Shown piece after piece: positions 41,659-50,330 of a stretch of 64,000 bases of DNA. Within the stretch, counting starts at the first letter, position 1; each line of letters starts with the position of its first letter. The stretch is taken from assembly GCF_900312815.1 (NCBI RefSeq), contig NZ_OMPE01000007.1, positions 372,001 to 436,000 of the forward strand, given 5' to 3'. A model generated the notes under the pieces. That model had not been told where the DNA came from. It did not search any database and saw nothing but the letters and a program-made list of their open reading frames with translations. This DNA is from Aquimarina sp. AU474. Lineage in GTDB: Bacteria; Bacteroidota; Bacteroidia; Flavobacteriales; Flavobacteriaceae. Position numbers and translations under genes: made by a program.

Positions 41659-42303
41659 TCATAATTCCATAGAGGTCTTTAAAAACATTTTAAGCTCACT
41701 TAACATCATAGCCGTTGCTCCCCAAACTGTATAACCATTTAATTTAAAGGAAGGTACTTCTATATTTTCTGCATAAGAAGTGGATAACTTCTTTAAAACT
41801 ACATTGTCATCATCCAGCAATTCGTTCAAAGAAACCTCTATTACCTCTGCTACTTCTTCTTCTTGAGGTACAAATTGTGGTCTATTTTCGGTAAAACCTA
41901 AAAAAGGGTGTACCCAAAAATTTGAAGGCGGTATATATACTTTTGTAAGTGTTTTTAGCACTTCTACCGTTTTAGTATGTACACCAACTTCTTCGTAAGT
42001 TTCTCTTAGTGCAGTTTCTGTATAATTTCGATCGTACGTTTCTACTTTTCCTCCTGGTAATGCAATTTGCCCAGAATGAACACCTTCATACTGCGGTCGT
42101 AAAATTAATACGATATGGGTTAATGCTTCTTTTGGATAAAAAAGCATCATTACTGCTGCATTTCTCGGGTTTCTTTCTTCTATTTTTAAACGTTTTAGCT
42201 CTTTTGCACGAATCTCTGGAGCCATAATAAAATGTGAAGAGTCTCCCGGTACTGACATTTTCTTTATTTTTGGAATTAATTTTTTAAATGTTTCAAATGT
42301 CAT
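41659..42303 (-). CDS. Nudix hydrolase, CoA diphosphatase-like
   Basis: This 214-residue protein has a complete Nudix box GGKVETYDRNYTETALRETYEEVG preceded by VLILRPQYEGVHSGQIALPGG, as in the NudL/coenzyme A pyrophosphatase group. The substrate is probably CoA or another nucleotide diphosphate. It has no signal peptide. Its start overlaps the start of the divergent cyclophilin gene by a few bases, so neither gene can have a promoter between them. The acyltransferase gene follows in the same direction. Confidence 0.88.
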   Translation of the reverse strand: MTFETFKKLIPKIKKMSVPGDSSHFIMAPEIRAKELKRLKIEERNPRNAAVMMLFYPKEALTHIVLILRPQYEGVHSGQIALPGGKVETYDRNYTETALRETYEEVGVHTKTVEVLKTLTKVYIPPSNFWVHPFLGFTENRPQFVPQEEEVAEVIEVSLNELLDDDNVVLKKLSTSYAENIEVPSFKLNGYTVWGATAMMLSELKMFLKTSMEL

Positions 42304-43037
42304 TTACCAGATCGATTTTAGTCTTTTGTTTTAGTTTTCTTCTATTCTCTAATTGTGAAGATACACATTCTAAAAAAAATAAAAAGAATGTTTTCAAAAC
42401 AGCTTCAGATAAAAAAGAAGATACTACAGAAACTTTATTTATAAAAAAAGATAGTTTAAAAAGTCAAAAAAATGATGATCAAGAGCCTTTTAAACTTACT
42501 AATGAGAATTTAAGAGAGTTTATGGCAGTATACGGAAAAGCAAATCCAGAAACTTTAGTGAGGATAAAAACGCGTTACGGTGATATTGATATTAAGTTAT
42601 ACAAAAAAACTCCAATTCATAGAGCCAATTTCATCTATTTAGTAAAAGAAAAATATTTTGATGAGACCTTTTTCTATCGTGTGGCCAAAGGTTTTGTTAT
42701 TCAAGGAGGTAATAGTGATAGGCAACAAATGGCTACTAGGCGTTTTGAAATTGGTGAATATTCGATTCCTCAAGAACAAATAAAAGGTCTAAAACATGTT
42801 CGAGGTACAGTTGCCTTATCAAAGCAATGGGTCGACAATCCTTCTAATCGCTCTACTCCATATGAATTCTTTATTGTTCTTGCCAAAAAAGGTGCACATC
42901 ATTTAGATGGTGAGCATACTATATTTGGTAGAGTAGTAAAAGGTATGAATGTAGCTGATAAAATATCACAAGTGCCTGTTGATGGTAGCGAATGGCCAAA
43001 AGAAAACATTTTTATTAAAGCCGAAGTGATTAGGTAA
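42297..43037 (+). CDS. Cyclophilin-type peptidyl-prolyl isomerase lipoprotein
   Basis: The ATG at 42297 gives a good lipoprotein signal (ILVFCFSFLLFSNCED); an ATG at 42288 adds three residues. The 246-residue protein has a Lys/Ser-rich linker (about 25-75) and a cyclophilin domain (about 80-246): VRIKTRYGDIDIKLYKKTPIHRANFIYLVKEKYFDETFFYRVAKGFVIQGG, SNRSTPYEFFIVLAKKGAHHLDGEHTIFGRVVKG. It assists folding of secreted proteins at the periplasmic side. It overlaps the Nudix gene head to head and ends at a bidirectional terminator. Confidence 0.92.
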   Translation: MSFTRSILVFCFSFLLFSNCEDTHSKKNKKNVFKTASDKKEDTTETLFIKKDSLKSQKNDDQEPFKLTNENLREFMAVYGKANPETLVRIKTRYGDIDIKLYKKTPIHRANFIYLVKEKYFDETFFYRVAKGFVIQGGNSDRQQMATRRFEIGEYSIPQEQIKGLKHVRGTVALSKQWVDNPSNRSTPYEFFIVLAKKGAHHLDGEHTIFGRVVKGMNVADKISQVPVDGSEWPKENIFIKAEVIR

Positions 43038-43107
43038 TAAATAGTATTAATTTACGAATCCCTTTATCCTAAGTCAACACTTTAAATCAATGAAAACAAC
43101 TTTGTAA

Positions 43108-43135
43108 AAAAAGGCGGACCTAAGTCCGCCTTTTT
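43108..43135. terminator. Bidirectional terminator between cyclophilin and GG-leader peptide genes
   Basis: AAAAAGGCGGAC (43108-43119) and GTCCGCCTTTTT (43124-43135) form a perfect 12-bp stem with a CTAA loop. It is flanked by A/T runs on both strands, so it stops transcription from the left gene and from the minus-strand peptide gene. Confidence 0.9.
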
Positions 43136-43138
43136 CAT

Positions 43139-43300
43139 TTAACATGGCTCAGCAATGGTTTCGCATTGACATGTATTTCTTGTCCCTACATACCATTTTA
43201 CTCGTTCTTTGTACTCACCCATTGGGTGTGCCAAACCTCCTCTTAACTGTGCTACCGCCTTTTTACTTAATTCTAGTTTTTTAAAATTGTTTTTTTTCAT
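43139..43300 (-). CDS. 53-residue GG-leader peptide, candidate RiPP/natural-product precursor
   Basis: This 53-residue peptide starts with a leader MKKNNFKKLELSKKAVAQLRGG. The KK-x-x-F-x-K-L-x-L-(S/N)-K-K-x-(V/I)-x-x-L pattern with a double Gly at residues 21-22 is that of the GG-type Bacteroidetes natural-product precursors and of some class I lanthipeptide leaders. The 31-residue core (from LAHPMGEY) has three Cys in a CxC...C arrangement near its end and three Thr and no Ser to serve as ring donors. The stop is 4 bases from a strong terminator. No radical SAM, LanB/C, YcaO or ABC-transporter gene was found in the window, so the modification and export genes must be elsewhere if it is a RiPP. 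Confidence 0.75.
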   Translation of the reverse strand: MKKNNFKKLELSKKAVAQLRGGLAHPMGEYKERVKWYVGTRNTCQCETIAEPC

Positions 43301-43321
43301 GATATGAAAATTTTATGATTT

Positions 43322-43333
43322 ATATGATCATAT
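43322..43333. promoter_or_regulatory. 12-bp palindrome upstream of the GG-leader gene
   Basis: ATATGATCATAT is a perfect palindrome 21 bases upstream of the peptide ATG (minus strand). It may be an operator. A clear TAnnTTTG box was not found near it. Confidence 0.35.
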
Positions 43334-43452
43334 CAATTCAATTAGAAAAATGTTACCCTGTATAGAATAAAATTGTAAAAAACTCATCCGCAACGTCATG
43401 AATTAAATTATAACACGCTTAACAACAAAAATTAAAATATTATAAGCGATTA

Positions 43453-44175
43453 CTATTGTTGAGTGTAGTAGTTGTAATCTTTTAGGATAGTATCAATAAA
43501 TTGACGATCATAAAGGTCTGATTTCACTTCTAGAACCTGCTCTATCTTATCTCTAAGTGCAGTTAATGTTTTAAAATCATTAGATTTTTTTGCAATTAAA
43601 TACGTTTCTTTTATTAATCGAACATCCTTATCAGAAAGTTTAGTAACATTCGTAAATTTTGGCTGGTAATCTTCTGTAAGGTCTTCTAAAATTGTGTGTG
43701 AGATTTTCACCTTTTGTTTGTTCGAAATAACTACCGTACCTGCTGCAGCGTCACCCAATCGCTGTCGTTTTTCTGAAAACAAAATAGTCAAAATGCCGAC
43801 CGAAGCAAGAAAAATCCAGATATCCACTAATCGCAACATCCACCTCACTAAATAATTACTCCAATGTGCTGGCAACCCATCAATACGCACAACTCGTATT
43901 TTTAAAATCATTTTACCAACGGTTCTACCATTAAAAATAATGTGCATTACCAAAGAATAAAACATAACAGGCAATAGCAACAAAGATTGTATTCCAAAAA
44001 CCGTCCAGTTGTCTTTAAAAGCAATACCAACAAGTGATGTAATAAAGTTCACTATAAATAAGTATAACCAGAAAATAGCAAAATCTATTAGCGCTGCTAA
44101 CATTCTTTCTCCTATACTAACCGTTTTATAGTCTAGGTTAACGTTTTGTGTTGTGTTGATTGCTAAATTTGCCAT
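43453..44175 (-). CDS. RDD-family membrane protein
   Basis: This 240-residue protein shows the RDD domain: VSIGERMLAALIDFAIFWLYLFIV with Arg and Asp in the first helix, NGRTVGKMILKIRVVRIDGLP and ILFSEKRQRLGDAAAGTVVI. Two more hydrophobic segments lie between. The last third is helical and soluble. The gene is divergent from the SpoIIM-to-DUF58 operon, which is a usual arrangement, so the protein may belong to the same membrane system. Its own function is unknown. Confidence 0.88.
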   Translation of the reverse strand: MANLAINTTQNVNLDYKTVSIGERMLAALIDFAIFWLYLFIVNFITSLVGIAFKDNWTVFGIQSLLLLPVMFYSLVMHIIFNGRTVGKMILKIRVVRIDGLPAHWSNYLVRWMLRLVDIWIFLASVGILTILFSEKRQRLGDAAAGTVVISNKQKVKISHTILEDLTEDYQPKFTNVTKLSDKDVRLIKETYLIAKKSNDFKTLTALRDKIEQVLEVKSDLYDRQFIDTILKDYNYYTQQ

Positions 44176-44198
44176 TTACAAGTAAGTCATTATCTTTA
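44168..44198 (+). promoter_or_regulatory. Candidate promoter of the SpoIIM-DUF58 operon
   Basis: TTTG (44168-44171), a 19-base spacer and TATCTTTA (44191-44198, one mismatch to TAnnTTTG) lie 16 bases upstream of the ATG at 44215. The -33 box overlaps the first codons of the divergent RDD gene. Confidence 0.5.
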
Positions 44199-44214
44199 AC
44201 CAAAAATTGTTTAG

Positions 44215-45189
44215 ATGCGGGAAGCAGCTTTTGTGAAGCAAAATAAAGAAAAATGGATCGCTTTTGAAAAGGCTATTAGTGAAAATTTAAATATAAGCCC
44301 AGATAAACTAGCCGATTACTATATCCATTTGACTAATGATTTGTCTTATGCGCAAACATACTATCCCGATAGTAAGACATTATTATACCTTAATTCTTTA
44401 GCCTCTCAGGCGCATCAAAAAATCTATATCAATAAAAAAGAAAATAAGAATAGAATCATTAGTTTCTGGAAAACAGAATTCCCTTTATTCTTTTATAAAC
44501 ACCAAAAAACCTTATTATATACTTTTTTAATATTTGGTACAGCTTGTTGCATCGGTATTATATCCGCATTAAATGACGCTTCATTTCTTAGGCTCATTTT
44601 AGGTGATGCTTATGTAAACGAAACACTTAATAATATTGAGAAAGGAGATCCTACAGGAATTTATAAGAGTGGTAGCATGGTGGGCTCTTTTTTGGGTATA
44701 ACCATCAATAATATTAGAGTAGCTTTTTTAGCTTATGCTTTTGGGGTGATTACTTCTGTAGGTACAGGCTATATAATATTTAGCAATGGTATTATGCTTG
44801 GCGCTTTTATGACATTTTTTTATACAAAAGGTATGTTATTCGAAGCATCAAAATCAGTATGGCTTCATGGTACTATAGAAATCTCGGTAATTGTTATTGC
44901 AGGTTGCGCTGGATTGGTGATGGGAAATAGTATTTTATTTCCAAAAACGTATTCTAGAAGAGTTTCTTTTATGAAAGGTGCAAAAGACGGTTTAAAGATA
45001 GTGGTTAGTACTATACCTTTTTTCATTATTGCTGGTTTCATAGAAGGATTCATTACAAGATACTCTAATATGCCTACATGGCTGGCAATGTCAATTATTT
45101 TTGGTTCATTAGCCTTAATTCTATTTTATTATATAATCTACCCTATAATTTTAAACAAAGCCTATGAGCGACAAATACATAGAGCTTAA
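44215..45189 (+). CDS. SpoIIM-like (stage II sporulation protein M family) membrane protein
   Basis: This 324-residue protein begins MREAAFVKQNKEKWIAFEKAI, the usual start of the Bacteroidetes branch of the SpoIIM/DUF95 family, followed by a long helix and at least six membrane segments. The centre has NDASFLRLILGDAYVNETLNNIEKGDPTGIYKSG and INNIRVAFLAYAFGV, as in the family. No sporulation exists in this phylum, so the link is to the MoxR/DUF58 operon. It is the first gene of the operon and overlaps the next by 26 bases. Confidence 0.88.
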   Translation: MREAAFVKQNKEKWIAFEKAISENLNISPDKLADYYIHLTNDLSYAQTYYPDSKTLLYLNSLASQAHQKIYINKKENKNRIISFWKTEFPLFFYKHQKTLLYTFLIFGTACCIGIISALNDASFLRLILGDAYVNETLNNIEKGDPTGIYKSGSMVGSFLGITINNIRVAFLAYAFGVITSVGTGYIIFSNGIMLGAFMTFFYTKGMLFEASKSVWLHGTIEISVIVIAGCAGLVMGNSILFPKTYSRRVSFMKGAKDGLKIVVSTIPFFIIAGFIEGFITRYSNMPTWLAMSIIFGSLALILFYYIIYPIILNKAYERQIHRA

Positions 45190-46087
45190 ACAAATCAGAG
45201 ATCTAGGTGAGATCATTTCTACCTATTTTGACTTTTTTAAGCAAAATCTTAAAAGCTTTACCAATATATTTATTAGTTATAATGGTATTTTTATACTCCT
45301 TTTATTAGGCTGTAGTTACCTTATGGTAACAGGGTTTATTGGGGCTTTCAGTTCAGAAACAGGGTTTGAAGGTACTCCTGATATTGATTCTAGTTTTTTA
45401 ATTGGGATCGGTGCCATACTATTTTTCTTTGTTTTTATTGGTACTGCAACCCTTAATTATAGCTTAGCATCTTCTTATATTATTAAGTATGATCAAGATA
45501 AAAAAGTAGTAGAAAACAAAAAAGAAGTCTGGAATATGGTTACCAGTAACTTTGGAAATATTATTGTTTTTATTATCCTGCTAGTTCTCATTTATATTGT
45601 ATTCATGATAGTATCTGTAATCTTAGCGATTATACCATTATTAGGCACCTTGGTCCAGTATGTTATTCAATTTTGGGTAACCTCATGGTTAGGTGTTTCG
45701 TTCATGGTCATGTTATATGAAAACAAAAGCCCTACGGATGCTTTAGGAGAAGGTTGGGATTTGGTGAAAACTAATTTTTGGAAATGCGTTGGAGTGAACT
45801 TTGTTCTTGGTTTATTGGTGGGTATTTTACTTTTACTTTTGTTAATGATTCCAGGAGTCTTGGTCGGGCTTTATTCATATCATGTTGTAGAAAACGGTAC
45901 CGTAATTGCCGAATCCGCAGTGGCTAAAATCATATATACGATTGCCTTATCGGTTTTCTTGATCGTAATGGCTTATTCGCAATCATTATCGCAGTTCATT
46001 AATGGGATTTTATACTTCTCATTACATGAACAAAAATATAATATTAATACTCGAGAAAAGATTGATCAAATTGGTATTGGTGAGTAA
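45164..46087 (+). CDS. Multi-pass membrane protein of the MoxR/DUF58 operon
   Basis: This 307-residue protein has six or seven hydrophobic helices after a soluble N-terminus (KYIELKQIRDLGEIISTYFDFFKQNLKSF), a layout typical of GdpDB-membrane-domain or DUF975-like proteins. I do not recognise it firmly. Its start overlaps the SpoIIM gene by 26 bases, and the next gene starts inside its last codons, so it is a regular part of the operon. Confidence 0.82.
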   Translation: MSDKYIELKQIRDLGEIISTYFDFFKQNLKSFTNIFISYNGIFILLLLGCSYLMVTGFIGAFSSETGFEGTPDIDSSFLIGIGAILFFFVFIGTATLNYSLASSYIIKYDQDKKVVENKKEVWNMVTSNFGNIIVFIILLVLIYIVFMIVSVILAIIPLLGTLVQYVIQFWVTSWLGVSFMVMLYENKSPTDALGEGWDLVKTNFWKCVGVNFVLGLLVGILLLLLLMIPGVLVGLYSYHVVENGTVIAESAVAKIIYTIALSVFLIVMAYSQSLSQFINGILYFSLHEQKYNINTREKIDQIGIGE

Positions 46088-46814
46088 CAAAATCATATAC
46101 ATAACATTTAGTTCTTTATTACTTCTTTTAAGTACGCCTTGCTGGTCACAAAAGGATTCATTAGAGGTTGCCATAGATAGCAGTAAGATATCTATTGTTG
46201 ATTTTTCTGAAGATTTGTCCAAAAAATATACAGGAGAAGAATTCGACTATGACACTGCCGAAGGAGAAACACAAAATTTCTTAGTTCGAATTCTTGATTG
46301 GTTTTTTGAGGGGTTACAAAGTATATTTGGTGTAGAGGTAAGTCCAGAATTAACCAAACTGGTAGAAAACTTGATTTATATATTACTTATTGGTTTTGCA
46401 ATTTATCTCATCATACGTGTTTTGGCCGGAAAAGAAGCTGTGTCATTTTTTGGAAAAAAGAATACTATTGTTGCTCCTATTAATATTACCGAAGAACATA
46501 TTGAAAAAATAAACTTAGATGAGCTTATAAAAAACGCTCTAAAAGAGAATAATTATAGATTAGCAATACGCTATATGTATTTAAAAACACTACAGGATCT
46601 ATCTATTAAAAAAGTGATTGATTATCATTTTGAGAAAACAAATACAGATTATTATAGAGAAATTGCGGATGTAACGCTAAAACAAAATTTTAGTAGAGTT
46701 TCGTATTTGTATGATTATATATGGTACGGAAAATTTGAATTAGATGAATCTGGTTATCAAAGTGCAAAAAAATCATTTGATCAACTACATACAAAAATGA
46801 ACTCCATTGGATAA
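46080..46814 (+). CDS. DUF4129-domain membrane protein
   Basis: The start is placed at GTG 46080 because it gives a signal peptide (SNKIIYITFSSLLLLLSTPCWSQ) and an 8-base overlap with the previous stop. The frame is open to an ATG at 46002, which would add 26 unlikely residues. The 244-residue protein has one further transmembrane helix near residues 96-115 and a C-terminal DUF4129 helical domain (IKNALKENNYRLAIRYMYLKTLQDLSIKKVI... YLYDYIWYGKFELDESGYQSAKKSF). DUF4129 is a hallmark of MoxR/DUF58/transglutaminase-type operons. The role is unknown. Confidence 0.82.
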   Translation: MSNKIIYITFSSLLLLLSTPCWSQKDSLEVAIDSSKISIVDFSEDLSKKYTGEEFDYDTAEGETQNFLVRILDWFFEGLQSIFGVEVSPELTKLVENLIYILLIGFAIYLIIRVLAGKEAVSFFGKKNTIVAPINITEEHIEKINLDELIKNALKENNYRLAIRYMYLKTLQDLSIKKVIDYHFEKTNTDYYREIADVTLKQNFSRVSYLYDYIWYGKFELDESGYQSAKKSFDQLHTKMNSIG

Positions 46815-48000
46815 AAGATCGAGAAACATATTGATCCTTTTTGGAATTGCTCTTTTAGCCATTATTGTGACTGAATTAGTACGACCTAAACCGATTAATT
46901 GGAACGACAGTTATACTTCTACAGATAAGATCCCTTTTGGAAGTTATGTTCTTTTTGAAGAATTAAAGGAGATAAAAGATGAAAACAATATTCATTTAAT
47001 TACTCAAAATCCATATGATTTCTTAAGTGATTCAGAATTACAAACCAATTCGTCCTACATTTTTATCAATTCTAACATTGGTCTAGATAAACGTTCTTAT
47101 GAAAAGTTAATAGCCTTTGTAAGAAATGGTAATTCTGTCTTTATGGCCGCTCAAAATTTTGGTAGGATCATCTCTGATTCTTTGCATATAGAAACAGAAG
47201 TAGATTATCAAATAGTCGAAGAAGAAATTACACCTACATTCTTTTCGTCATTTATTAAGGAAGATTCTTTATCCAAATTCAAAAAGAAAATATATAAGAC
47301 CGTTTTTAAAAATTTCGACACAATAAAAACCACAGCGTTAGGATACTACAAAAATGATCAAAGTGAAGATAATCTAGCTGAAGTTAATTTTATTAAAGTA
47401 ATAGAAGGAAAAGGTAATTTATATCTAAATACACTGCCTCAAGCTTTTTCTAATTACTATATGCTTAACGGAAATCAAAAATACGCCTCAACATGCTTGT
47501 CGTTTTTAAATGTTTCTGAAACCATATATTGGGATGATTATTTAAAAGATGGTAGAAAAATAATTGATTCCCCGATGCGTTTTGTCTTAAATCAAGTTCC
47601 TTTACGATGGGCATATTATTTGCTCCTAATTGGTATTTTAGTTTTTGTAATATTTACAGGAAAAAGAGAACAAAGAATTATTCCTATTGTTAAACCTTTA
47701 GAAAACACTTCAATAGAATTCACCAAAACTATTGGTGATTTATATTTTCAACATAAAGATTATAGTGATATTATATCCAAAAAAATCACGTACTTACTAG
47801 AAAAAATAAGAAGTACATATTACATAAGTACCAATAATCTGGACAAAAAATTTATCGATAAACTGGCTATTAAAACAAATCACTCAATTGATGAAACCAC
47901 CAAGTTTGTTGATTATATTAATGCTTTAAAAAGTAAAGCATTTCATACTGAAGAAGATCTGGTAGAATTAAATAAAAAAATAGAAGAATTTACACTATAG
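46807..48000 (+). CDS. DUF4350-domain membrane protein
   Basis: This 397-residue protein starts with TTG at 46807; a stop (TGA 46798-46800) three codons before in the same frame leaves no other start. It has a membrane helix at about 9-24, then a DUF4350 domain (PINWNDSYTSTDKIPFGSYVLFEEL... SSYIFINSNIGLDKRSYEKLIAFVRNGNSVFMAA), a second helix near 273-291 and a soluble C-terminal tail. It overlaps the previous gene by 8 bases. It is predicted to bind a ligand with a glutamine-amidotransferase-like fold. The role is unknown. Confidence 0.85.
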   Translation: MDKRSRNILILFGIALLAIIVTELVRPKPINWNDSYTSTDKIPFGSYVLFEELKEIKDENNIHLITQNPYDFLSDSELQTNSSYIFINSNIGLDKRSYEKLIAFVRNGNSVFMAAQNFGRIISDSLHIETEVDYQIVEEEITPTFFSSFIKEDSLSKFKKKIYKTVFKNFDTIKTTALGYYKNDQSEDNLAEVNFIKVIEGKGNLYLNTLPQAFSNYYMLNGNQKYASTCLSFLNVSETIYWDDYLKDGRKIIDSPMRFVLNQVPLRWAYYLLLIGILVFVIFTGKREQRIIPIVKPLENTSIEFTKTIGDLYFQHKDYSDIISKKITYLLEKIRSTYYISTNNLDKKFIDKLAIKTNHSIDETTKFVDYINALKSKAFHTEEDLVELNKKIEEFTL

Positions 48001-48003
48001 ATT

Positions 48004-48996
48004 ATGGAAGAAACTAATGAAAACTCGTTAGAATTTAACAATAGAATAGATCTAAAAAACTTACAGGAAGCGGTTCAAACTATAAAAAATGAACTTGGCA
48101 AAGTCATTATTGGGCAACAAGACATGATAGAATTATTAATCATCTCTATATTGGCCAATGGGCACTCACTAATAGAAGGAGTCCCAGGAGTAGCCAAAAC
48201 GGTTACAGCAAAATTACTTGCTAAGACAATGAATGTAGATTTTAGTAGAATACAATTTACTCCTGACCTTATGCCTAGTGATATTTTGGGAACTTCTATA
48301 TTTAATGTAAAGACCTCAGAATTTGAATTTAAAAAAGGCCCAATATTTTCTAACATTATTCTAATTGATGAAATCAATCGTGCACCTGCAAAAACCCAAG
48401 CAGCTTTGTTTGAGGTGATGGCAGAACGCCAGATCACTATTGACGGCATTGAAAACAAAATGGAACTACCATTTTTAGTTTTCGCCACTCAAAACCCTAT
48501 CGAACAAGAAGGGACATATGCTTTACCTGAAGCTCAATTAGATCGATTTCTATTCAAAATTAATGTAGGATACCCATCTATTGAAGAAGAAGTTACAATT
48601 TTGGAGGGGCATCATCAAAGAAAAAATGCAATTCCAACAGATATTATTCAACCGGTTTTAGATGCTAAACAAATTTATGAATATCAAGATATTATTAAGG
48701 GAATCATTATCGAAAATAACCTATTAAAATATATCGCCTCTATTGTGAATAATACTCGTAATAATGGGAATTTATATTTAGGAGCATCACCAAGAGCATC
48801 AATCGCAATCATGAACGCTTCTAAAGCTATGGCGGCCATTAACGGGAGAGATTTTGTTACTCCCGATGATATTAAAAAAGTCGCTTCATCGGTATTGAGA
48901 CATCGTATCATATTAACTCCTGAAAGAGAAATGGAAGGGTTTACAGCGGAGAAAGCCGTTACGCAGATTATCGAAACTATTGAAATTCCACGCTAG
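48004..48996 (+). CDS. MoxR-family AAA+ ATPase
   Basis: This 330-residue protein has a Walker A of the MoxR type (GVPGVAKTVTAKLLA), the MoxR-specific strand RIQFTPDLMPSDILGTSIF, a Walker B (IILIDEINRAPAKTQAALFEVM), sensor 1 (LVFATQNPIEQEGTYALPEAQLDRF) and sensor 2 (ASPRASIAIMNASKA). It hydrolyses ATP and works with its DUF58 partner, encoded directly downstream, in assembly or activation of other proteins. The start codon follows the previous stop by 3 bases. Confidence 0.95.
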   Translation: MEETNENSLEFNNRIDLKNLQEAVQTIKNELGKVIIGQQDMIELLIISILANGHSLIEGVPGVAKTVTAKLLAKTMNVDFSRIQFTPDLMPSDILGTSIFNVKTSEFEFKKGPIFSNIILIDEINRAPAKTQAALFEVMAERQITIDGIENKMELPFLVFATQNPIEQEGTYALPEAQLDRFLFKINVGYPSIEEEVTILEGHHQRKNAIPTDIIQPVLDAKQIYEYQDIIKGIIIENNLLKYIASIVNNTRNNGNLYLGASPRASIAIMNASKAMAAINGRDFVTPDDIKKVASSVLRHRIILTPEREMEGFTAEKAVTQIIETIEIPR

Positions 48997-50330
48997 TGAA
49001 GACCTTTTTAAAAAGTTTATACCTAAAGAAATTATTTTTTACTGCCTTCTTTTCGATTGCAGTACTGTTTGTAGTATCTTATTTCTTTGAAAACTTATTA
49101 AGTGTCTCAAAACTGTTGCTAACGATTCTTCTTGTCGCTCTTATATTTGATATACTGCTATTGTATCGAAATAAATTAGGAATCCAGGGATATCGTTCTT
49201 TACCCGAAAAATTATCGAATGGAGATGAAAATGTAATCGAAATCCTGGTAACTAATAGATATCGATTTACAAATACTATTAGAATTATTGATGAAATACC
49301 TATACAATTTCAACATCGAAATTTTGCTATTAATTCTAAATTAAAACCTTCAGAGCAGAAAACATTCACTTATAATTTACGTCCAACATTACGTGGCGAA
49401 TATCATTTTGGTAATCTAAATATTTTCACATCATCTCCTATAGGTTTGATAGAAAGAAAACAACAATTTTCTACAGCCGCTATGGTGCCAAGTTATCCTT
49501 CTTTTTTACAGTTAAAGAAATATGATTTTATTGCTTTCACTAATAGACTAAAACTTTACGGGTTAAAAAAAATAAGAAGAATTGGTAATACATTAGAATT
49601 TGAACAGATCAAGGACTATGTATCTGGTGATGATATAAGAAATATTAACTGGAAAGCTACAGCCAAAAGAAATCACTTGATGGTCAATCAATATCAAGAT
49701 GAAAAATCACAACCTATATACTCGGTCGTTGATACAGGTAGGGTAATGAAAATGCCTTTTAATGAATTAAGTCTATTAGATTACGCAATTAATGCAACAT
49801 TAGTAATTTCTAATATTGCGATCAAAAAACAAGACAAAGCAGGTATGTTTACTTTTTCGCGAAAAGTAGAAAATATGGTTGCTGCCCAACGTAGAAAAAG
49901 TCAAATGAATTTGATTTTAGAAACATTGTATAATGTTGATACTGACTTTTCTGAATCTGATTTTGCCAGATTATATGTGGATATAAAAAGAAATATAACC
50001 CATAGGAGTTTACTACTGCTTTATACCAATTTTGAAACACTAGATGGTTTACATAGACAATTACCCTATTTACAAGCCATTGCCAAAACACATCTATTAG
50101 TGGTAATTTTCTTTGAGAACACAGAATTAGAGTCGTTATTAGATAAACCAGCTGTTTCTACCAAACAAATTTTTGAAAAAACAATAGCTGAAAAATTCGT
50201 TTATGAGAAAAAAATGATTGTAAACGAACTAAATAAACACGGGATACATTGTATTCTTACAGCGCCCGAAGACCTTACCATAAATACAATTAATAAATAC
50301 CTCGAAATTAAAGCCAGAGGACTTTTATAA
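48996..50330 (+). CDS. DUF58-domain (VWA-like) protein
   Basis: This 444-residue protein starts with GTG at 48996, overlapping the MoxR stop by one base. Two membrane helices at the N-terminus (about 10-50) are followed by a beta-rich domain (LPEKLSNGDENVIEILVTNRYRF) and the DUF58 region (about 195-300: DYVSGDDIRNINWKATAKRNHLMVNQYQDEK, SVVDTGRVM) with the VWA-like fold. The first metal-site motif DxSxS of VWA domains is changed to DTGRV here. It is the last gene of the operon. Confidence 0.9.
   Translation: MKTFLKSLYLKKLFFTAFFSIAVLFVVSYFFENLLSVSKLLLTILLVALIFDILLLYRNKLGIQGYRSLPEKLSNGDENVIEILVTNRYRFTNTIRIIDEIPIQFQHRNFAINSKLKPSEQKTFTYNLRPTLRGEYHFGNLNIFTSSPIGLIERKQQFSTAAMVPSYPSFLQLKKYDFIAFTNRLKLYGLKKIRRIGNTLEFEQIKDYVSGDDIRNINWKATAKRNHLMVNQYQDEKSQPIYSVVDTGRVMKMPFNELSLLDYAINATLVISNIAIKKQDKAGMFTFSRKVENMVAAQRRKSQMNLILETLYNVDTDFSESDFARLYVDIKRNITHRSLLLLYTNFETLDGLHRQLPYLQAIAKTHLLVVIFFENTELESLLDKPAVSTKQIFEKTIAEKFVYEKKMIVNELNKHGIHCILTAPEDLTINTINKYLEIKARGLL

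Follow-up and report, generated by a model that had tools for sequence, protein, structure and literature searches.

This locus raises the question of what a 53-codon open reading frame (ORF), lying among housekeeping-type genes, encodes, and how its product would be switched on, matured and exported. The window, that is the whole stretch of 64,000 nucleotides analysed here, comprises positions 372001-436000 of contig C10 from the 4.84-Mb genome of Aquimarina sp. AU474 (the query genome, G000). A sequence-only reading had described the minus-strand ORF as a possible RiPP or bacteriocin precursor with the leader MKKNNFKKLELSKKAVAQLRGG, a Gly-Gly pair at residues 21-22 and a 31-residue core carrying a CxC...C arrangement at its end, a description that is exact in translation (Table 1). 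The strong terminator placed behind the ORF by the same reading is a real hairpin (-20.5 kcal/mol, z -5.9), although in the computed fold it begins 2 bases past the stop codon and not 4; the pattern-based terminator scan listed none behind the gene. Being tiny, the gene is easily missed by gene finders. No library family reached its cut-off for the peptide, and its predicted structure (AlphaFold) has no confident fold, with a mean pLDDT of 50.

Table 1. Coordinates, in window positions, of the peptide gene, its control elements and its two neighbours.
Feature	Position	Strand	Basis
ECF-type promoter, GGTAACA-N14-TTGATAT, 29 nt before ATG	43330..43357	-	conservation and pattern searches
TATAAATCA, conserved downstream piece of the promoter or 5' leader	43316..43324	-	upstream alignment
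Precursor peptide ORF, 53 aa, stop codon included	43139..43300	-	translation, identical to that of the sequence-only reading
Leader, residues 1-22, Gly-Gly end	43235..43300	-	translation and alignments
LxLxKx5L motif LELSKKAVAQL, residues 9-19	43244..43276	-	orthologue comparison; motif from PMC7268733
Core, residues 23-53	43142..43234	-	invariant Thr40/Thr43/Thr48 and Cys44/Cys46/Cys53 in the full-length copies compared
Terminator hairpin between the peptide gene and the convergent cyclophilin gene; pairs from 43136 down to 43107	43107..43136	-	fold
Cyclophilin-type peptidyl-prolyl isomerase gene, constant neighbour, no functional role claimed	42288..43037	+	
RDD-family gene on the opposite flank of the peptide site, no functional role claimed	43453..44175	-	

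The search set comprised 91 genomes, 52 of them from the genus (the query genome included), drawn from a larger genus group, and 32 of the 91 gave a match at E up to 1; 13 of these matches are weak (E 0.07-0.96), and the 19 strong ones (E 1.1e-19 or better) all fall within Aquimarina, so that 19 of the 52 sampled Aquimarina genomes carry the peptide. Eighteen copies are full length; the copy of G046 (L019) has 50 residues and a divergent end, with R in place of the motif K, a two-residue insertion ahead of the Cys pair and a terminus that falls before Thr48 and Cys53. Across all pairs of the 18 full-length copies pS is 0.64 and pN 0.11, indicating strong purifying selection. Conservation in relatives and a bias towards synonymous change, the two points on which the sequence-only reading had staked the ORF, are thus both found, and judged from these comparisons the 53-codon ORF is a real gene. 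That reading had also proposed comparing leader with core: over the same pairs pN is 0.16 in the leader and 0.08 in the core, and the core is therefore the more conserved part, the opposite of what is expected of a diversifying bacteriocin. A diversifying bacteriocin is not supported by this difference, nor by the five tested neighbours, which belong to housekeeping-type families. Of the proposed RiPP or bacteriocin precursor, the GG-leader, Bacteroidetes-type, RiPP-like part is supported, and the bacteriocin-like role, for a gene kept at one site among such neighbours, is not.

An alignment of 15 of the 19 copies (omitting G030, G002 and G001, whose peptides are identical to kept copies, and the shortened G046) has 32 of 53 columns invariant, including Gly-Gly, His25, Thr40, Thr43, Thr48, Cys44, Cys46 and Cys53; no Ser or Thr of the core is kept beyond the three invariant Thr. 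One additional copy (L037) has one extra core residue. Encoded relatives in named species genomes, scanned for with an exact 8-residue pattern, amount to 18 loci, 17 from Aquimarina and one from a Bacteroidia MAG. Among 397 genomes of the family, a sample with few Aquimarina in which at most 17 candidates per genome were scored, the full peptide was not found outside the query genome; matches in five genomes of three other genera extend over the leader and no further than the first residues of the core, the exception being one match over residues 4-41 that contains an internal stop.

The site of the gene is fixed in the genus. The cyclophilin gene adjoins it in all 19 sampled genomes and all 18 named loci, and the RDD gene lies on the opposite side within about 7 kb in all 18 named loci, with intervening genes in some. 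For all but one of the 33 peptide-less genomes the cyclophilin region was retrieved, and in these 32 regions no pseudogene remnant was detected at the empty site (best nhmmer E 2.6). The RDD gene is present in 22 of the 32, indicating that the site is bounded on both sides there, and the cyclophilin-RDD gap is as short as 15-22 bp. The distribution of the peptide is patchy on a two-gene tree, a proxy built from two genes beside the site in 51 of the 52 genomes (G047 has no cyclophilin match); under an assumed single ancestral gain, it entails 14 losses within the 38-tip clade that descends from the last common ancestor of the peptide carriers. As an observation apart, the cluster running from the RDD gene onward (window 43453-50330) exists in two deeply different versions among L031-L048: the genes at 48004 and 48996 are 84-97% identical to the window in L031 and L038 and 55-69% identical in the other named loci that hold them, which suggests that the cluster has been replaced.

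The 60 bp ahead of the start codon are conserved and consist of GGTAACA, 13-14 bases, TTGATAT, 5 bases and TATAAATCA, and the DNA farther upstream is much less alike between copies. A promoter of this ECF type precedes all 19 peptide genes. The full element occurs once each in 18 of the 52 genomes, every one a carrier of the peptide, and is absent from the remaining 34, with a reversed control of 0; the carrier lacking a full-element match, G012, reads CTGATAT. Within the window there is one exact match, against 0 in 100 shuffles, and 922,579 bp of other fetched Aquimarina loci gave none, as did the reversed control; allowing two mismatches gives four matches in the window for 1.34 expected, no clear enrichment. 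The 12-bp palindrome noted upstream by the sequence-only reading is present, but it is not conserved (the closest relative reads ATATGATAATAT) and falls inside the conserved promoter, and it was rejected as an operator on that account. The Rfam element DUF805b (RF02914) was rejected as a regulator of the peptide gene, since the 301 bases surrounding the start contain no match up to E 5. At another locus, L318 (G002:C18), the ECF-type promoter of a lipoprotein-like gene is followed by a stretch resembling DUF805b by eye; the two may act in series there.

A looser form of the promoter pattern, searched in 13 genomes (nine carriers and four non-carriers), gave 31 matches against 8 in the reversed control. 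Eight belong to peptide genes and 12 to lipoprotein-like genes, with the promoter 21-71 nt before ATG and the lipobox read by eye. The remaining 11 belong to neither; that 11 of the 23 non-peptide matches have no lipoprotein-like gene, with eight matches in the reversed control, weighs against the regulatory scheme proposed below.

An ECF factor often has as its own target the promoter beside its gene. In the query genome, an ECF sigma gene encoding a Sigma70 region 2 domain (C7:229761-230345) is directly adjoined by a second copy of the promoter (reading TTGATCT), which stands before a 189-residue collagen-like lipoprotein-like gene, and a 347-residue lipoprotein-like gene with a looser-pattern promoter lies near it. 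Orthologues of the sigma factor, 62-100% identical, are present in 27 of the 52 genomes (the next listed ECF paralogues reach at most 36%), and in all 27 the promoter type stands divergent from the sigma gene, always with N14 and 46-59 nt away from where the sigma match begins; these loci read TTGATAT in 19 cases, TTGATCT in seven and CTGATAT in one. The orthologue is found in 19 of 19 peptide genomes and in 8 of the 33 others (Fisher 3e-8, a value that ignores relatedness). Each of the seven inferred sigma losses falls where the peptide is missing too, and seven further peptide losses occurred with the sigma factor kept. When random peptide loss was simulated with the sigma pattern fixed, all carriers were sigma-positive in 0.05-2% of accepted runs at rates 2-6 (6 of 13,141, 11 of 7,973, 10 of 3,073, 14 of 915 and 4 of 195), and in none of the 10 accepted at rate 8. 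The eight genomes that hold the sigma factor without the peptide weigh against the scheme proposed below.

Among the other products of the sigma locus, the 347-residue lipoprotein is linked less tightly to the peptide: it is strongly matched in 18 of the 19 peptide genomes, the remaining one, G051, having a 29% relative, and in 7 of the 33 others. A search for solved structures of it gave none at E up to 1. The 246-residue protein encoded behind the sigma gene, for which Pfam gives just weak TPR matches, is presumably anti-sigma-like, as suggested by the order of the genes and a single hydrophobic stretch noticed by eye. Also encoded nearby are a protein with a PKD domain, a CHAT-TPR protein and one resembling aspartyl proteases. 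Linkage of the peptide gene to this remote ECF sigma factor is well supported, and what is new here is the putative ECF-type promoter on the peptide gene, matching the promoter beside one particular ECF sigma gene. No report of the peptide or its sigma link was found in the literature searched, whose coverage leaves out most subscription journals and preprints.

For the fate of the product, the leader is informative. According to PMC7268733, a number of Bacteroidetes class I precursors have a leader with LxLxKx5L, many ending in Gly-Gly, and a C39 protease is often encoded in the cluster. The query leader reads LELSKKAVAQL-R-GG; the motif is kept in 18 of the 19 orthologues, its last residue being L or V, and the Gly-Gly end in all 19. 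The Gly-Gly lies two residues past the motif, and the two precursors next to LanBC in the query genome have it 5 residues further on. The leader scores below the cut-off of both models concerned, with 13.1 of 22 bits for NF038153 (11.2 and 10.9 for the two precursors beside the genome's own LanBC) and 10.0 of 25 bits for TIGR04149.

Candidate enzymes are encoded at a distance. The query genome has one match each to PF14028 (LanB C-domain) and PF05147 (LanC) and four to PF03412 (C39), three of these strong (frames of about 740 codons) and one weak; one of the strong three was confirmed as a C39-ABC exporter. None lies inside the window, in agreement, for these three families, with the earlier statement that it holds no maturation enzyme or peptidase-containing ABC transporter. 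The accompanying proposal that genes elsewhere modify and export the peptide is borne out in so far as the genome has candidate genes for maturation and export outside the window, and not as regards the modification itself. LanB and LanC are on C7 and the peptide gene on C10, and this separation is a point against maturation by these enzymes. A single cluster on C7 (L120 9145-14577) comprises both parts of a split LanB (N-part and C-part), LanC and two precursors sharing the leader motif, and DUF805b (RF02914) precedes each of these precursors. LanB and LanC occur in all 19 peptide genomes and in 22 and 19, respectively, of the 33 others; since in the tree simulations at rates 2-6 all carriers were LanB-positive in 58-89% of runs and LanC-positive in 16-27%, these associations carry no weight. 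A LanB tree of 51 of the 54 hits shows no orthologue common to all peptide genomes, 12 carrying one main type and seven the other, which also counts against the lanthipeptide reading. Generic LanB/LanC co-occurrence was rejected as proof of a maturase on both grounds.

A profile of the peptide detects five more leader-like peptides in the query genome (E 0.0016 to 1.2, individually weak), each opening a short frame with a GG leader. The 19.5-kb stretch around four of them gave no match to LanB, LanC or C39, and the fifth belongs to an array in which nine precursors stand next to a C39 exporter. The four lone peptides lie on C3, C4 and C10 outside the window (L121 9687-9842, L122 9624-9776, L124 9470-9619 and L125 9698-9937), and three have counterparts in another species with a conserved core or place: the core is kept for two (L122/L129 and L124/L130), and one (L125/L132) keeps its place beside a RecQ-like gene. 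The array (L123/L234, on C4) holds nine GG-leader precursors, a C39-ABC exporter and a thioredoxin-like gene; its contig gave no LanB or LanC match, and its precursors, read by eye, also match LxLxKx5L. On a 5.98-Mb contig of G020, the LanB of L139 lies at 0.47 Mb and the LanC of L138 at 4.16 Mb, and a second LanB-type and LanC-type match stand side by side at 5.33 Mb. The lone precursors and the separated LanB and LanC of G020 make it plausible that enzymes act remotely on lone precursors in Aquimarina.

Two further observations concern GG-leader genes at large. TPR proteins with a C-terminal AraC-type HTH are encoded near GG-leader precursors (L126 7788-9521, L123 2327-4045, L120 15342-17099 and L138 3970-5724) and could be sensors of these precursors. 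In another genus of the family, G268 has 10 leader-like matches over seven contigs (L257, L261, L264, L267, L270 and L273-L277) and G441 has five along one contig (L256, L263, L265, L269 and L272), and dispersed GG-leader genes may be widespread in this family.

We propose that the product of the ORF is the precursor of a small peptide that Aquimarina exports. The ECF sigma factor, presumably restrained by the adjoining anti-sigma-like protein, would turn on the peptide gene through GGTAACA-N13/14-TTGATAT and act on lipoprotein-like surface genes as co-targets, a linkage of sigma factor and promoter that we regard as very likely. The leader would then guide the precursor to the class I lanthipeptide enzymes encoded at another locus of the genome: LanB would remove water from Thr40, Thr43 and Thr48, and LanC would link these residues to Cys44, Cys46 and Cys53. 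The Thr-x-x-Thr-Cys-x-Cys stretch of the core is similar to the intertwined rings of nisin. We judge this LanB/LanC modification slightly better than an even bet. A remote C39 peptidase exporter would cleave the precursor behind Gly22 and carry the 31-residue core out of the cell, which we consider likely. The core hardly varies within the genus, and the product would therefore, with reasonable probability, serve its producer in a constant role, for example as a signal of envelope stress, a signal between cells or a peptide acting on the envelope, and not be a diversifying bacteriocin; the gene's own sigma-type promoter and the surface-lipoprotein-like co-targets also speak for such a role.

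The leader motif, the LanB, LanC and C39 genes of the genome and the Thr/Cys core make the lanthipeptide reading the most economical. Given the remote enzymes, the shorter leader, the lack of a common LanB orthologue and the sub-cut-off models, the ORF is best said to work like a class I lanthipeptide precursor and not to be a proven member. Our preferred explanation, with about an even chance of being right as a whole, is a GG-leader peptide under ECF sigma control, whose lanthionine bridging and export would probably be carried out by enzymes in trans. A broader suggestion, more tentative, is a dispersed class I lanthipeptide system in which lone precursors kept among housekeeping genes would be acted on in trans by LanB and LanC encoded at a distance, and in which this peptide would be a near-invariant envelope-stress or signalling lanthipeptide, the direct target of a dedicated ECF sigma/anti-sigma pair that also drives surface lipoproteins.

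The alternative that survives best keeps the gene and its ECF control and has the core exported through C39 without lanthionine, as an unmodified or disulfide-bonded signal or effector. The leader fits the classical C39 double-glycine pattern as well, with hydrophobic residues at -12, -7 and -4; PF03412 matches occur in 48 of the 52 genomes, the LanBC-free array shows GG-leader precursors beside their own C39-ABC exporter, and no LanB orthologue unites the peptide genomes. The class I motif in the leader argues the other way, although the precursors of that array share it, and so do the three invariant Thr and three invariant Cys in a core that keeps no other Ser or Thr; in a disulfide-bonded monomer, one of three Cys would stay unpaired. 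We consider this possible but unlikely. In Bacteroidota, radical SAM, ATP-grasp and YcaO enzymes are also used on GG-leader peptides, and an enzyme of such a type encoded elsewhere might modify the peptide under the same control; the weak similarity to TIGR04149 agrees with this, but its score is below the cut-off, and such a modification appears improbable. Very improbable is a metal-binding peptide: its potential ligands His25, Cys44, Cys46 and Cys53 are all invariant, but the leader is of the export-type GG kind and no confident fold is predicted, by a program (AlphaFold) that does not model metals. A chance ORF or a non-coding RNA, to which shortness and the lack of a library family could point, has a negligible probability and is already refuted by the substitution pattern of the 18 copies, with the fixed site and the gene's own promoter element against it as well.

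RiPP searches limited to enzyme-adjacent precursors miss genes like this one. If the linkage holds, the ECF-controlled, probably lanthionine-bridged peptide would be a concrete case of a conserved lanthipeptide-type product under an ECF sigma factor in Bacteroidota, its job could be read from the sigma regulon, and the other lone GG-leader genes of these genomes would be suggested to be real substrates.

Compared with known systems, the peptide resembles the Bacteroidetes class I lanthipeptides described in PMC7268733 in its leader motif, Gly-Gly end, Thr/Cys core and the presence of LanB, LanC and C39 in the genome, and differs in its shorter leader and nearly invariant core. The survey reported there (Walker et al. 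2020) set a distance limit of seven genes from a LanC-domain protein, whereas the Aquimarina peptide gene stands alone on another contig. TIGR04149 (GG_sam_targ_CFB) also comprises short GG-leader peptides, but the Aquimarina peptide scores 10.0 against its cut-off of 25. Like the prochlorosins (PMC10783134), whose precursor genes may lie dispersed in the genome, it would have its modifying enzyme at another locus; the prochlorosins are class II, with ProcM, Nif11-type leaders and less conserved cores, whereas the Aquimarina candidates are class I enzymes and the core is conserved. A precedent for the regulation is microbisporicin, a lantibiotic system under an ECF sigma/anti-sigma pair (PMC4973701), MibX/MibW, with a similar promoter geometry (GAACC-N15-GCTAC, against GGTAACA-N13/14-TTGATAT in Aquimarina). 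There, the sigma pair lies within the biosynthetic cluster and the precursor operon carries no ECF motif and is not a direct target, whereas in Aquimarina the sigma gene lies far away and a promoter of the type found beside it immediately precedes the precursor gene.
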